Below, piece by piece: positions 58,863 through 64,000 of a stretch of DNA of 64,000 nt. The stretch spans positions 407,466-471,465 of the forward strand of contig NZ_LELK01000001.1 of the NCBI RefSeq assembly GCF_001039475.1. Reading direction: 5' to 3'. The stretch is from Guptibacillus hwajinpoensis. Lineage in GTDB: Bacteria > Bacillota > Bacilli > Bacillales > Guptibacillaceae. A model generated the notes under the pieces. It saw only the letters and a list, made by a program, of their open reading frames with translations. It made no database searches and had not been told where the DNA came from. Position numbers and translations under genes: made by a program. Position 1 is the first letter of the stretch. Every line of letters begins with the position of its first letter.

Positions 58863-59624
58863 TTATTTTTTATATTGATCAATCTTTTGCTGTAGCTTAC
58901 GCGCTACAACATCTAATGGACCATTTAGCTCCTCATTTGACAGAGTAACTTTCGCATGGCTTTCATCCATTTCTAACGCTTCCGCGAATAATCCTCCGAT
59001 ACCACGTGCACGTCGATCGACTTCAAGCATAACATCAACATCGTTATCATGTAATACGAAAACTACTTCAAGTTCGTCTAAGTATGCGCGATATTCTCCA
59101 CTAGGCGTCAATTCAAATTCTTGAACATAACCGTAACGCTTTGAAAGCTCCATCTCAACTTTCTTAACATGAAAGCCAAGGTAGCTTTCTAATGCTTCGA
59201 GTACTTTTTTAGCGTGAGGATGTGGTGAAACTTGGATCAGGTCTCGATCTGTCGGATCGAGAGCCATTGGGATGTCTAAGCCGGTCTCAAACCAAACTGG
59301 CACTCTTCCAAGGGATGCAGGTGTATGATATGGAAGTTGAATAGAGAAGGGGATTTCTTTTGTTTCACCTTCTTTAATCGTTTCTTGATGCGCAATTGGA
59401 TACTTATGCAAGCAGACTTTCTCTTTCACTTTCCGGTCATCAACTTCACGAATAGCTTCTGTCATAAGGAATATATGAATAGAATCGATTGATTGTTCGA
59501 CGTCTCCACCCTTAATAACTACTTTTCCATGAACGTCTTCACCTGGAACAAATCGATCTTTCTCTAACTGGGTATCTACCTTTGCAGCTCCAACGCCAAC
59601 ACTCGCTAGAAGTTTTTTTAACAT
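58863..59624 (-). CDS. spo0M: Sporulation-control protein Spo0M
   Basis: Spo0M is an arrestin-like protein that affects early sporulation and cell division. The N-terminus (LLASVGVGAAKVDTQLEKDRFVPGEDVHGKVVIKGG) and the middle YEF-like IPFSIQLPYHTPASLGRVPVWFETGLDIPMALDPTDRD are the family signature. The start at 59624 has GAAGGGATGG upstream and gives 253 residues; the ATG at 59633 is too close to that site. It diverges from the giant gene. Confidence 0.94.
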   Translation of the reverse strand: MLKKLLASVGVGAAKVDTQLEKDRFVPGEDVHGKVVIKGGDVEQSIDSIHIFLMTEAIREVDDRKVKEKVCLHKYPIAHQETIKEGETKEIPFSIQLPYHTPASLGRVPVWFETGLDIPMALDPTDRDLIQVSPHPHAKKVLEALESYLGFHVKKVEMELSKRYGYVQEFELTPSGEYRAYLDELEVVFVLHDNDVDVMLEVDRRARGIGGLFAEALEMDESHAKVTLSNEELNGPLDVVARKLQQKIDQYKK

Positions 59625-59746
59625 ATTTTCCATCCCTTCTTCATGACCTCTCCCTTGAGTATACGAAAAGAGAGAAACAAAGGATTCACTTTTCTTGGTT
59701 TTTTATCCGAACTTTCTTTTCAAAATCCAATTTAATTATTACTTAA

Positions 59747-59781
59747 AAAGAAGCTTTTCCAAACTGGAAGAGCTTCTTTAT
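59747..59781. terminator. Terminator-like hairpin in the spo0M/giant-gene gap
   Basis: AAAGAAGCTTTTCC and GGAAGAGCTTCTTT (one mismatch) flank AAACT; T-rich sequence follows on the plus strand. The place between two divergent genes is odd and may mark a leader attenuator or a short RNA. Confidence 0.5.
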
Positions 59782-59923
59782 ATTGGAAAAAATCTTGTCA
59801 TGGAATTTTATTTAAGTAATATCTATAATACGTAGAAGTATAACTTTTTCTAGAATTTTACTTTCTTATTGGGCATTTCTGCGTATAGTGAATGGATTGA
59901 TTTAACTCATTGGAGGTGTTCGC

Positions 59924-62900
59924 GTGCCGTTTCCTAATAACAATCAGTTTACGCCTATTCTGGTAGGTGGAAAGGTGTATGCAGATGTAGTAAAAGATAT
60001 TAATCCTTCTTGGACGGATATTGTAGGGGATGAGAACTTTCCATCGTTTTATTATGCGTACGATACGATCAACGTTTATTTTCGTATGCGTGTAAGAGCA
60101 GACCCTCGTAACCGAGCTAAGACATCTTTTAAAAGAAATGCGTGGGGAGTACTACTTAATACAAAAGGTGTAGCTGGAACATATGATTGGATGCTAGCGA
60201 TTAATGGTTTGAAGAATCGCGTGAATTTAATTCAAAACGTCGATAAAGAGTTTAACTCCTGGAATGATAAAGCAGAGGGTACGAATGGCAAGGGAGAGCC
60301 AAATTTTGAACGTCAAATTATAAACTTTGACGTGGCTCGTGTCGTTCAGGCGGATAGTTCTCTCGGTAATTCACAGAACTATTTTATTGATTTTCTTTTC
60401 CCTGCTTCAACGTTCTTCTCGTATTTGGATATCACGCCGAATGAACCAATCCAGATGGTTGCATTTACGGCGACGAACAACAACAACTATAACAAAGACT
60501 CCCTTCGAACCTCTGAAGACTATGAATTTAAGGATGCGCTTTCGGATCCTACCACAGTAAATACAGGAAACGTGAAAGCGAATTTGGAGATTTCCAAAAC
60601 GATCTTAACAGGTCCTACTGATCCTATGGCAGGACAGCACTACGAGTGGACAGGAAGAATTACGCTAACAAATATCGGAAAAAGTCAGGCTACGATCCTC
60701 AATGTGGTCGATGTCGTAGCATTAGACGTTGTCTCTGTATTTGAAGCGACTTCTGTATCGCAAGGATCTACGGCATACAACGAGGGAAATAAAACACTTA
60801 CATGGACGGTCGGTGACCTTGAAGCTGGAGAGAGCGCAACCTTAGATTTTATAGAAAATGGCTTTTTTTATACTTCAGGAGAACAGGTTTTAAACGCAGC
60901 CACAGGAATTGGATTCGACTTATTCACTGGAAGAGAGCTAGTGCCTGTCAGGTCAGCTGTTACAGTTAATGTTCAGGCTACAGGTGGGGTAGCAGGTAAC
61001 GTGCTCAATCAGGTGAACGGTTTACCTGAAGAAAATGTGACGGTTCGCTTATTGGATGGTGGTACGGAAATCGCCACGACACAAACGGACGTTTTTGGAG
61101 ATTACAATTTTACTGGGGTCACTCCAGATACGTACACCGTTGAATTTTCAAAGACAGACTTTACTGATGTGACCCGTATCGTTGAGGTTACGTCAGATAA
61201 AGTCACGATCGTTAATCTTTATATCGCGCCTGCATTAGGAAATTTAGCAGGAACTATTACCTCTGGTGGTTCTCCAATTGCCGGAGCGAAAGTAGCGATT
61301 TCCAATAACATCGGTCAAGAAATTCTTGCGACGACAACGAATGCAGCTGGTGAGTACACGATTAACAATATACAGCCGGGTCACTATGCCTTGACGGTTA
61401 CTGCTGATGGTTATCAATCGCAGTCGATTGGTAAAGACGTGATTTCGAACAATACATCTGTCGAGAACTTTGTTCTTGCTCCTAATCCTGGAACTGTTGA
61501 AGGGACTGTTACAAGTGATGGGGCACCTATTGCAAATGCAACGGTTGATATTATAGGATCAACGGGACTTGTCGTTGCTTCAGCCACTACGGACGCAGCG
61601 GGTAAATGCGTAATCAACCGATTAACTCCAGGCTCTTATCGTTTCAGGGCAAAAGCAAACTCGTATCAGACCTTTAACGTTGGATTTTCAGTCCTCGCCG
61701 GTCAAACTGCTGATGTAGATGTTGAGCTTCTTCCTAACCCAGGTTCAGTTGAAGGTCGTGTAAAAGATCAAGACGATGATAGTGATCTAGCAGGATGTAA
61801 TATTAAAATAACCAATTCGTTTGGGTTAACGATCGCGAACGCCATCACCGATGCGAATGGCCGTTTTGACGTTGGCTCTCTTGCACCTGGAAATTACGTA
61901 TGTACGTTTGCTTCAGATGGACACGGAGCAAAGAACTATGGGTTTTATGTGCGGCCTGATCAATCTACAGTTGCCGATTGTTTTCTTAGAAGGCGAACGG
62001 GCGTACTCGAAGGAACTGTAGAATCGGATGGCAGTCCAGTAAGTGGAGCTAAGATTGATGTTGTCTCTAACAACGTCGTCGTTGCAAAAACGGTTGCAAA
62101 CGACGATGGGACGTATAAGATTAGGGGCCTCTCGCCAGGGAGATATACTTGTATTTTTACGGCGGATGGTTACTCAACCACTACCTTGGGAGCACTTATC
62201 AGAAATAATCGAACGTTCGAATTGAATGCCGAGCTCAAACAGATCTTTGGTTCTGTAACCGGTACGGTTACAACTGATTCGGGTGATCCGCTAGTAGGAG
62301 CAGTAATTCTCGTGGATAATTCGGACTCTGATGTTCTTGTATCTAGAAGAGTAACAGATTCGAATGGGGAGTATACGGTAAGTGAACTCAAGCCTGGTAG
62401 CTACTCCATCACGGCGTCATTCCCTAATTACCAATCCTTATTAGGCGGAGCGATCGTCACTTCAGGAAATGTGTCAGAGCTTGATTTCTCACTTACTGCA
62501 GATCCTTCAACAATCGTAGGTACGATTATTAATGAAGAGACGGGAGAGCAGATTACAGGAGAATCGATCCAGATGCAGCTGATCGATTCGAATGGGGTTT
62601 TATTAGCCACTACCTTCTCGACCAATGAAGGTGAATTTACGTTCGAGAATGTTCTGGATAATACGTACACGATCAACGCCAATACGGATGCATACCGAAG
62701 CTCGTACGCAAGTGTGAAAACAGAACCAGGTCAAGTGGTAACTACGAGGGTGGGCCTTGTCCCATTACCAGGATTTATTACAGGTACGTTAAGAGACGCA
62801 GATACGAGAGTTCCGATCGCGGGAGCAACAATCAATATTAGTAATGCGCTTGGGTTCCAGGTAGATTCATTGATTACGAGTACAGATGGTGAGTTCTTAA

Positions 62901-64000
62901 CTGTTGGGCTTCCTGCTGGAATTTACACAATGGCTGTCGTCGCGGAAGGATATGAAACGAGTCTAATCGGAGAAATCGTTCCTTGGGGCTTTACAAAAAG
63001 CATCGATATTGAGTTAAAAGCAAATCCTGGTTCGATTAGTGGAATCGTCACACCTCCAGCAGAAAATTTAATCGTTCAACTCTACTCGTTGGATAACCAA
63101 TTAGTGAATGCAACTGCCGCTGATCCATCTGGTGCTTATCAATTCGAAAACTTGGCACCTGGAAACTATATTTTAAAAGCAGCAGCTCCGAATTATTCGG
63201 TTGCTTGCACAGGAGCAACCGTAAAGTCGAATAGCGTTGCAACGATCCCGATGACGATCAAACCGAATCCTGGTTCAATCAGTGGGAACATTGTGAATGA
63301 CCTTGGAGTTACCTTATCGAACGTTACGATTTCTCTTCTTGATGTTAATGAGACACCGATCGCATACGGAAATACGGACGTTGATGGGAACTACTTTATC
63401 AGTAATGTGCCTCCTGGTAGCTATGCACTTGTTGCCAAACTGATGATGCATACGACAACAACGGGTACAGTGGCGGTTGAAGCGGGCCAAGAAGTTCAAG
63501 ATATTGATTTTGTTATGGCGAGATTGTTAGGAACCATTTCTGGTGGGGTATCAGACTTTCAAACAGGCGAGGTTATTACTGGAGCTTCCGTTCTTCTTAG
63601 AAATAGTCTCGGTATTCTTATCAAATACACGACGAGTGACCAGTTCGGTAAGTTTCTGTATCGAAATGTTGGACCTGACTCTTATACAGTTACATGCTCA
63701 GCTCCGAATTATTCTACTGAAATTACAGGGGTCATTGTCCCTGCTGGAGAAACGGCTGGAGCGAATGTAAGGCTGAAAACAACGGTTGGTGACATTGAAG
63801 GTCAGGTTGTAGATGAAAACGGGGATCCAATCAGTGGAGATAACATCCAACTGAAGTTACTAGGGGCAAATAAAGAATTACTTCAAGCCTTTTTAGCGAA
63901 TCCAGACGGTTCTTTCGTCGTTCCGAGCTTGTCGGAAGGAACGTATTTCGTTACGGCAACACTCGAAGGGTATACCGCTAACCTTGTTTCTTCGATTATT
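59924..64000 (+). CDS. Giant repeat protein, carboxypeptidase-regulatory-like domains; 3' end outside the window
   Basis: The frame is open for 1359 codons to the last base. GTG at 59924 lies 5 nt after GGAGGTG. There is no signal peptide (N-terminus MPFPNNNQFTPILVGGK). Residues 1 to about 210 are a unique domain rich in Asn and aromatics; about 215-345 is DUF11-like (LEISKTILTGP, ITLTNIGKSQATI, LTWTVGDLEAGES). From residue 354, eleven full and one partial repeats of 80-88 residues follow, each with PG(S/T)(V/I)xGxV at the start and a central (D/N)xxGxYxxxxLxPGxYxxxxxAxxY. These are transthyretin-like beta-sandwich repeats. Place and composition suggest a spore- or cell-surface fibre, but this is inference. 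Confidence 0.85.
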   Translation, partial: MPFPNNNQFTPILVGGKVYADVVKDINPSWTDIVGDENFPSFYYAYDTINVYFRMRVRADPRNRAKTSFKRNAWGVLLNTKGVAGTYDWMLAINGLKNRVNLIQNVDKEFNSWNDKAEGTNGKGEPNFERQIINFDVARVVQADSSLGNSQNYFIDFLFPASTFFSYLDITPNEPIQMVAFTATNNNNYNKDSLRTSEDYEFKDALSDPTTVNTGNVKANLEISKTILTGPTDPMAGQHYEWTGRITLTNIGKSQATILNVVDVVALDVVSVFEATSVSQGSTAYNEGNKTLTWTVGDLEAGESATLDFIENGFFYTSGEQVLNAATGIGFDLFTGRELVPVRSAVTVNVQATGGVAGNVLNQVNGLPEENVTVRLLDGGTEIATTQTDVFGDYNFTGVTPDTYTVEFSKTDFTDVTRIVEVTSDKVTIVNLYIAPALGNLAGTITSGGSPIAGAKVAISNNIGQEILATTTNAAGEYTINNIQPGHYALTVTADGYQSQSIGKDVISNNTSVENFVLAPNPGTVEGTVTSDGAPIANATVDIIGSTGLVVASATTDAAGKCVINRLTPGSYRFRAKANSYQTFNVGFSVLAGQTADVDVELLPNPGSVEGRVKDQDDDSDLAGCNIKITNSFGLTIANAITDANGRFDVGSLAPGNYVCTFASDGHGAKNYGFYVRPDQSTVADCFLRRRTGVLEGTVESDGSPVSGAKIDVVSNNVVVAKTVANDDGTYKIRGLSPGRYTCIFTADGYSTTTLGALIRNNRTFELNAELKQIFGSVTGTVTTDSGDPLVGAVILVDNSDSDVLVSRRVTDSNGEYTVSELKPGSYSITASFPNYQSLLGGAIVTSGNVSELDFSLTADPSTIVGTIINEETGEQITGESIQMQLIDSNGVLLATTFSTNEGEFTFENVLDNTYTINANTDAYRSSYASVKTEPGQVVTTRVGLVPLPGFITGTLRDADTRVPIAGATINISNALGFQVDSLITSTDGEFLTVGLPAGIYTMAVVAEGYETSLIGEIVPWGFTKSIDIELKANPGSISGIVTPPAENLIVQLYSLDNQLVNATAADPSGAYQFENLAPGNYILKAAAPNYSVACTGATVKSNSVATIPMTIKPNPGSISGNIVNDLGVTLSNVTISLLDVNETPIAYGNTDVDGNYFISNVPPGSYALVAKLMMHTTTTGTVAVEAGQEVQDIDFVMARLLGTISGGVSDFQTGEVITGASVLLRNSLGILIKYTTSDQFGKFLYRNVGPDSYTVTCSAPNYSTEITGVIVPAGETAGANVRLKTTVGDIEGQVVDENGDPISGDNIQLKLLGANKELLQAFLANPDGSFVVPSLSEGTYFVTATLEGYTANLVSSII

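Follow-up and report, generated by a model that had tools for sequence, protein, structure and literature searches.

Spore surfaces govern adhesion, clustering and dispersal, and to our knowledge the nap and appendage proteins described so far are mostly collagen-like or pilins of endospore appendages (ENA), largely from the Bacillus cereus group. BclA-type filaments of the nap are reported to be fixed at one end to the exosporium, and F-Anchor-3 of Clostridium aceticum, which combines DUF4183 and four DUF11 domains with a CsxA-like domain, is predicted to enter the CsxA lattice through the latter (PMC11952670). DUF11 is also described in the spore-surface proteins CrdA/B/C and in C. taeniosporum appendage proteins (PMC5749712). 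ExsY and CotY are reported to self-assemble and to be orthologous to CotZ and CotY of B. subtilis (PMC8546674), and BMQ_0737, fused to green fluorescent protein (GFP), belongs to the outermost set of proteins on B. megaterium spores, where it binds antibody (PMC4656864). Here we describe a giant repeat protein of Guptibacillus hwajinpoensis whose gene begins in a 64,000-nucleotide stretch of assembly GCF_001039475.1 (the window; contig NZ_LELK01000001.1, positions 407,466 to 471,465, or G000:C14:407466-471465). We propose, with a probability of about 0.8, that the giant is a stalk protein of the spore's outermost layer, anchored by its C-terminal domain in the lattice of the crust or exosporium and carrying a sugar-binding-like tip.

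The reading frame opens with GTG at 59924 (+), directly 3' of a ribosome-binding site (RBS) evident in the sequence, GGAGGTG (59912..59918, +), and remains open through the window end at 64000. Continued into the parent contig to obtain the complete protein, it encodes 3,425 residues and stops 6.2 kb past the window (L002:12202). The product comprises an N-terminal domain (N-domain; residues 1-212, 59924..60559, +), a DUF11 domain (residues 221-326, 60584..60901, +), 35 prealbumin/CarboxypepD_reg-type repeats (residues 355-3354, the first 12 occupying codon 355 to the window end, 60986..64000, +) and a CotZ-like C-terminal domain (C-domain) of ~60 residues, which lies outside the window (C14:477481-477663) and was delimited with the full open reading frame and C-domain profiles. 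An earlier note on this DNA had described a unique N-terminal domain, a DUF11-like domain and the lack of a signal sequence, and all three held: a Pfam search at E up to 1 finds no family in the first 212 residues, and NCBIfam gives a single entry at chance level; PF01345 matches the full protein at E 6.5e-8 (33.3 bits, above the cut-off of 24.6); and the most hydrophobic 12-residue stretch of the first 45 residues scores only 1.45, with no upstream start that would supply a signal peptide. Reading past 64000 for the C terminus, as that note had advised, revealed the CotZ-like domain, and neither an LPxTG sorting motif nor a C-terminal membrane helix was found in the giant. Two of the findings that the note named as refuting it, a signal peptide from an alternative start and the sortase motif, were thus looked for and not seen. 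The protein is strongly acidic, with a net charge of -228; its lysine content, relevant to conceivable isopeptide cross-links in the repeats, is 2.4%.

The C-domain provides the link to spore-coat proteins. The last ~60 residues recur in a paralogue, a second giant of 2,745 residues in the same genome (C12; two other members of the genus have the same pair), in Fictibacillus and Pseudalkalibacillus giants, and in stand-alone Cys-rich proteins, mostly of ~105-130 residues. A C-domain profile finds three strong places in the genome, namely both giants, which are members of the profile, and a 115-residue Cys-rich protein, which is not (E 7.3e-13). The same search places the domain in 16/299 genomes of the order, and a stand-alone copy is present in six of the seven order genomes that contain a giant with a CotZ-like tail. 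In hhalign comparisons the giant tails match the stand-alone proteins with a probability of 97.4, while the merged family (28 sequences) aligns with 30 CotZ-family proteins over 95 collinear columns with a probability of 94.2 (E 1.2e-7) locally and 92.6 globally; 60 column-shuffled controls reached at most 1.4 and the reversed control 0.1. The kinship of the C-domain with CotZ thus compared appears to be real but remote. The C-domain family resembles CotZ/CotY/ExsY (PF10612) in its collinearity and in the short, Cys-rich stand-alone members, whereas the giant itself has kept just the beta half at the C terminus, joined to a ~3,300-residue stalk, and has no match to the Pfam model. The N-terminal part with the CVCDVL-type motif is present in the stand-alone relatives and absent from the giants. 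A model of the C-domain from the A. algicola orthologue is a five-stranded beta fold (predicted local distance difference test, pLDDT, 89.2) with no significant match in PDB, where Sm/SH3-like small barrels appear at E 0.18 or worse (best, Gemin6, template modelling (TM) score 0.65); for one CotZ protein searched by sequence no solved structure was found.

The N-domain is present at 53 named loci, a lower bound because the scan uses exact peptide patterns; 52 of these are in spore-forming Bacilli and one is in a cyanobacterial metagenome-assembled genome (MAG). In genome-wide searches it occurs in 24/299 genomes of the order and 5/398 of the phylum, the window genome included. The named hosts are Alkalihalobacillus, Fictibacillus, Ectobacillus, Halobacillus, Rossellomorea, Metabacillus, Priestia, Pseudalkalibacillus, Thalassobacillus, Sediminibacillus, Brevibacillus, Marininema, Paenibacillus, Cohnella and several Bacillus, genera that, at the level of the genus rather than strain by strain, are spore formers. 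The MAG, assigned to the cyanobacterium Moorena, holds a fragment of a giant in a 6.9-kb contig (L111, WTKN01000305.1), which is probably contamination of the bin.

Tails could be classified in 44 of the 53 loci, the others running off the contig (L106, L111, L128, L131, L133) or being fragments (L114, L147, L149, L150): 11 are CotZ-like, 15 are of the BMQ_0737 type, three are HYR domains and 15 are other or none. The CotZ-like class is sharply bounded: the C-domain profile gives E values of at most 5e-14 for these 11, of which four come from genes used to build the profile, and no match (E at least 1.4) for the remaining 33. Of 16 Cys-rich giant tails scanned against NCBIfam, 15 hit the BMQ_0737 family model (NF052457) with E values between 5e-13 and 1e-24, two of them exceeding the curated cut-off of 71 bits and the others falling below it. 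These tails belong to homologous giants of Rossellomorea, Priestia, Halobacillus and Bacillus; the window giant ends in the CotZ-like domain instead, NF052457 is not among its 12 NCBIfam hits, and its genome has a separate BMQ_0737-family gene. The occurrence of two coat-type modules at the same end of one family, an argument from homology, points most strongly to both the spore and a C-terminal anchor.

The homologues also share the manner in which they begin. Judged by the hydrophobicity of 12-residue stretches and by eye, all 52 measured homologues have leaderless-looking starts, the strongest stretch scoring 2.09 (hydrophobicity and promoter counts cover the 53 named loci without L147). 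Nearly all start with M-x-[FY]-P, and in 45/53 named loci an RBS-like motif directly precedes the assigned start. Among eight inspected distant homologues that carry the N-domain in other architectures, six (G047, G055, G518, G595, G637 and G029) reach scores of 2.34-3.07 and, by eye, begin with classical signal peptides; in a seventh, the second G176 locus, the start is basic and then turns hydrophobic, but scores only 1.71. G176 thus combines both kinds of start in one genome, its giant being leaderless and its distant N-domain homologue signal-like (L172 and L081). The eighth, L152 (G456:C208), from another branch of the phylum, is a leaderless mini-form in a 380-residue frame, in which the N-domain and roughly one repeat are combined with a Cys-containing tail, a layout that is perhaps ancestral.

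Structure prediction for the N-terminal region, also advised by the earlier note, gave a beta-sandwich (AlphaFold2, 50-sequence alignment, mean pLDDT 87.9). Its best Foldseek matches in PDB are the sugar-binding modules CBM74 and CBM9 and an ethylbenzene dehydrogenase subunit (E 0.004-0.03, TM <0.5), the first two of which weakly suggest that the modelled domain is sugar-binding-like; no solved structure was found for it by sequence. In the comparison with the sister species, A. algicola and CinArs1, the N-domain is the most conserved part of the giant (94 and 89% identity) and the C-domain the least (48 and 42%), a pattern consistent with a tip that performs the function and a base that adjusts to the lattice.

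The earlier note's twelve or more tandem repeats proved to be 35, each detected at E 4e-13 or better by a hidden Markov model built from the giant's own repeats; the window contains the starts of 12 and the whole of 11. The spacing is 81-92 residues rather than the 80-88 given in the note, and the PGSxxG start that it described is found in only some repeats. PF13620 CarboxypepD_reg matches 35 stretches, with related prealbumin-like domains throughout the array. The view that the repeats are old rather than recently amplified was borne out: identity among them averages 27.5% (maximum 44.3%), and in both sister species every one of the 35 finds its best match at the same position, with mean identities of 91% and 84%. 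In the Fictibacillus giant L101, which has 36 repeats, position is kept for 29/35 (counted from printed indices) at a mean identity of 53%. The array is thus old and fixed in order. The number of repeats is also nearly constant within lineages: Alkalihalobacillus orthologues have 35, Alkalihalobacillus paralogues and Pseudalkalibacillus 27, and Fictibacillus giants either 35-36 (four) or 27 (two); every complete Rossellomorea giant has 23, as have one Metabacillus, Thalassobacillus and Sediminibacillus; Brevibacillus has 21 (4/4), the seven complete Paenibacillus 18 and Cohnella 17. The two complete Halobacillus giants are an exception, with 35 and 30, and a count of 37 is already reached in three open frames. 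Fixed order and number within lineages are unusual for a tandem array and suggest that length or position matters. Within residues 3183-3425 (L002:11471-12199), the last two repeats are only 50-59% identical between the sister species, against 75-99% in the other 33, as if the anchor end were evolving or recombining separately.

On the proposed model the giant would be translated in the sporulating mother cell, from whose cytoplasm the spore surface is itself built, so that an export signal would be superfluous. Its C-terminal beta-domain would fix it into the lattice of the crust or exosporium, a likely builder of which in this host is the small Cys-rich CotZ-like protein encoded at C14:1,244,241-1,244,588. 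The 35 beta-sandwich repeats would make up a stalk whose length, in an extended state, would be on the order of 100-150 nm, as estimated from typical domain size, and this stalk would end in DUF11 and the sugar-binding-like N-domain, which may contact surfaces, glycans or other spores. The spore-surface role had been put forward in the earlier note, and gains support from the CotZ-related C-domain, the BMQ_0737 tails of homologues, the leaderless starts and the spore-forming hosts, with the MAG as the one exception. More broadly, we lean slightly towards a joint view in which the giants constitute an undescribed class of spore appendage, consisting of single-chain leaderless stalks with a lineage-fixed length, a shared tip and anchors exchanged in the course of evolution (CotZ-like, BMQ_0737-type or other), which would plug into whichever lattice the host makes, and in which a tip domain of this kind occurs with a signal peptide in other proteins and without one on spores. 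The family as a whole ranges from 17 to 37 or more repeats and from about 1,900 to 7,159 residues. No description of it was recognised in the literature searched, which did not cover bioRxiv preprints.

It should be emphasized that several observations weigh against a lattice-anchored spore stalk. With respect to the anchor, PF10612, the Pfam model of CotZ, misses the C-domain, three stand-alone proteins and the whole genome, and membership by that model was rejected; the match to CotZ is weak when the families are kept apart (30.7 for the giant tails, 41.0 for the stand-alone proteins), only the merged family being convincing; the part of a CotZ-like protein present in giants is limited to its C-terminal half; and G176 has a giant with a CotZ-like tail but no detected stand-alone partner. 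Among the 44 complete homologues three end in an HYR domain and 15, from Paenibacillus, Brevibacillus, Cohnella, Marininema, one Halobacillus and B. horikoshii, lack a recognised anchor. No coat-family match was found in NCBIfam for 11 of these 15 tails, the scan excluding Paenibacillus L141, L142, L143 and L145, and in Brevibacillus the 240 bases after the stop contain no continuation of a C-domain in two of the four tails. At the other end of the protein, the weakest signal-like start (1.71) falls inside the range of the giants (up to 2.09), and the distant homologue in G456 is leaderless yet without a repeat array. As to distribution and setting, the N-domain is missing from 11/14 genus members searched; polysaccharide genes lie near few of 54 giant stretches (weak cases are two at L107 of Halobacillus hunanensis and one at L124); and the sigma-K consensus was not found upstream of the giant gene. 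Co-occurrence with SpoIVA does not discriminate either: SpoIVA is present in 288/299 order genomes, and the 11 that lack it include no N-domain genome (of 24), where under one would be expected, so that with a gene nearly universal in the sampled order the comparison is uninformative.

It could be argued that the giant is instead a vegetative cell-surface adhesin, which is exported without a signal along an unrecognised route and binds the cell wall through its C-domain. Prealbumin-type repeats and DUF11 are indeed typical of cell-surface stalks in general, and distant homologues of the N-domain occur in proteins with signal-peptide-like starts. We nevertheless regard such an adhesin as highly unlikely, since a signal-peptide-like start is seen in none of the 52 measured homologues, LPxTG is absent from the last 80 residues of all 44 complete ones, 26 of these 44 carry coat-type tails, and the named hosts, apart from the MAG, are spore formers. 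If the protein does belong to the spore, it might still be an internal scaffold or coat protein that links layers of the coat rather than a stalk that faces outward; CotZ-type proteins and BMQ_0737 build layers, and the outward orientation of the repeats is itself a proposal. The length of the giant, its net charge and, as a weak point, its conserved sugar-binding-like N-domain are better suited to an exposed stalk, and the reported binding of antibody to BMQ_0737-GFP on spores (PMC4656864) also argues for exposure, which makes the scaffold unlikely. Rather improbable, too, is that the giant tethers a separate ENA-type endospore appendage. Such a tether would follow the logic of F-Anchor-3, as that protein is described in PMC11952670, in which a stalk is joined to a lattice-like domain; however, neither DUF4183 nor DUF3992 is among the Pfam matches listed for the giant (25 of 29 families), and neither was hit when its N- and C-terminal pieces were searched.

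The preferred reading, an outward stalk anchored in the outermost layer, sets the giant apart from the described systems in several respects. Sporesilk of B. thuringiensis reportedly consists of auto-crosslinking spore fibres and may overlap with the giants. The likeness to F-Anchor-3 and the F-ENA lies in a DUF11 spore protein being anchored through a domain like that of a lattice protein (PMC11952670); F-Anchor-3, as reported, has pilin-docking DUF4183 domains and four DUF11 domains (zero to four in its homologues), whereas the giant has 35 prealbumin-type repeats and no detected DUF4183. BclA is described as collagen-like, with an N-terminal leader that docks on ExsF, in contrast to a beta-sandwich chain with a proposed C-terminal anchor; collagen is not among the 25 of 29 Pfam families listed for the giant, whose repeats are of the CarboxypepD_reg type and not Gly-X-Y. 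In the accounts of CrdA/B/C and the C. taeniosporum proteins DUF11 lies inside the repeats, whereas in the giant it occurs once, between tip and array. The giants may thus represent a type of spore-surface filament with an unusual architecture.

The longest homologue, of 7,159 residues (length from coordinates), is encoded on a 140-kb plasmid of Priestia megaterium (L157/L168, NZ_CP085418.1, 16859-38338); it is annotated only as a carboxypeptidase regulatory-like domain protein, and by eye its tail is like neither coat domain. Plasmid-encoded genes are reported to be needed for the B. megaterium exosporium, a giant-like protein not being named in the available part of that source (PMC4674009). 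Alignment A4 includes the named loci except four, L111 from the MAG and the truncated L147, L149 and L150.

In the window genome the stand-alone CotZ-like gene is surrounded by wecB-like, polysaccharide-synthesis, nucleotide-sugar dehydrogenase, epimerase and glycosyltransferase genes, and a BMQ_0737-family coat gene lies 13 kb away. These three elements, assembled within 20 kb (G000:C14:1230500-1249500), probably form a spore-surface island. The polysaccharide cluster, gene by gene, presumably resembles the ytdA-ytcABC set. That set is reported to affect the crust of B. subtilis (PMC7439481). Two genes that follow the 7,159-residue Priestia homologue, wecB-like and polysaccharide genes, are 70% and 74% identical to those of the stand-alone cluster. 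In G059 and G005 the stand-alone genes adjoin a gene taken by eye for fabI, and in B. subtilis cotZ is also near fabI. A protein of 73-80 residues, similar by eye in each case, is encoded divergently beside all four stand-alone genes inspected (L085:4253-4477, -; L014:2058-2300, +; L016:2290-2511, +; L021:2056-2280, +); no family was matched by the one scanned in Pfam or the two scanned in NCBIfam, and it is perhaps another component of the spore surface. A leader hairpin, CCTGA...TCAGG, was seen by eye before the start in ~8/14 stand-alone genes (L055, L057, L058, L059, L062, L073-L075).

Upstream of the giant gene is a conserved promoter-like element, GCGTATAGTGAA (59881..59892, +), a possible -10, which has a counterpart at about the same place in L098-L103 (Alkalihalobacillus, Fictibacillus) and is absent from L104 and L105; it does not match the sigma-K consensus. 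CATA at -38 to -41 occurs in 4/4 giants of the paralogue group, 4/10 giants overall, 0/14 stand-alone genes and 20/105 controls. In the upstream regions of the named set, whose loci are non-independent, CATA is found in 20/52 against 32/207 controls, and CATANNNTA in 8/52, four of the eight being Brevibacillus, against 3/207; other A/T-rich words are enriched to the same degree, and AC-N14-18-CATA is not enriched (1/52 named loci against 7/207 controls). Between the giant gene and its neighbour an inverted repeat followed by a T run, terminator-like by eye (59750..59779), also recurs upstream of the giant gene in both sister species.

The divergent neighbour (58863..59633, -) is spo0M, as the earlier note had it (PF07070, E 5.8e-73). 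The adjacency lends no support to a spore role, however, since no spo0M was found at E 1e-8 or better in 62 stretches around relatives, sister species included. Six of these stretches are second fetches of the same gene, leaving 56 distinct places, and they are mostly upstream, spanning 10 kb in most of the 53 loci (<1.3 kb in five), the downstream side being largely the giant itself. Guilt by association with spo0M was therefore rejected, and because the adjacency is not seen in relatives spo0M is probably not part of the giant's system. A phage origin of the giant was also considered and discarded, as no match was found.

This study suggests that a family of giant proteins, one of them above 7,000 residues, spans at least 14 named genera of spore formers. 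Its exchangeable C-domains would be natural anchors, which suggest the lattice that each species builds and could be used to display proteins on harmless spores. The family also allows a comparison of how one kind of domain is delivered with and without a signal peptide.

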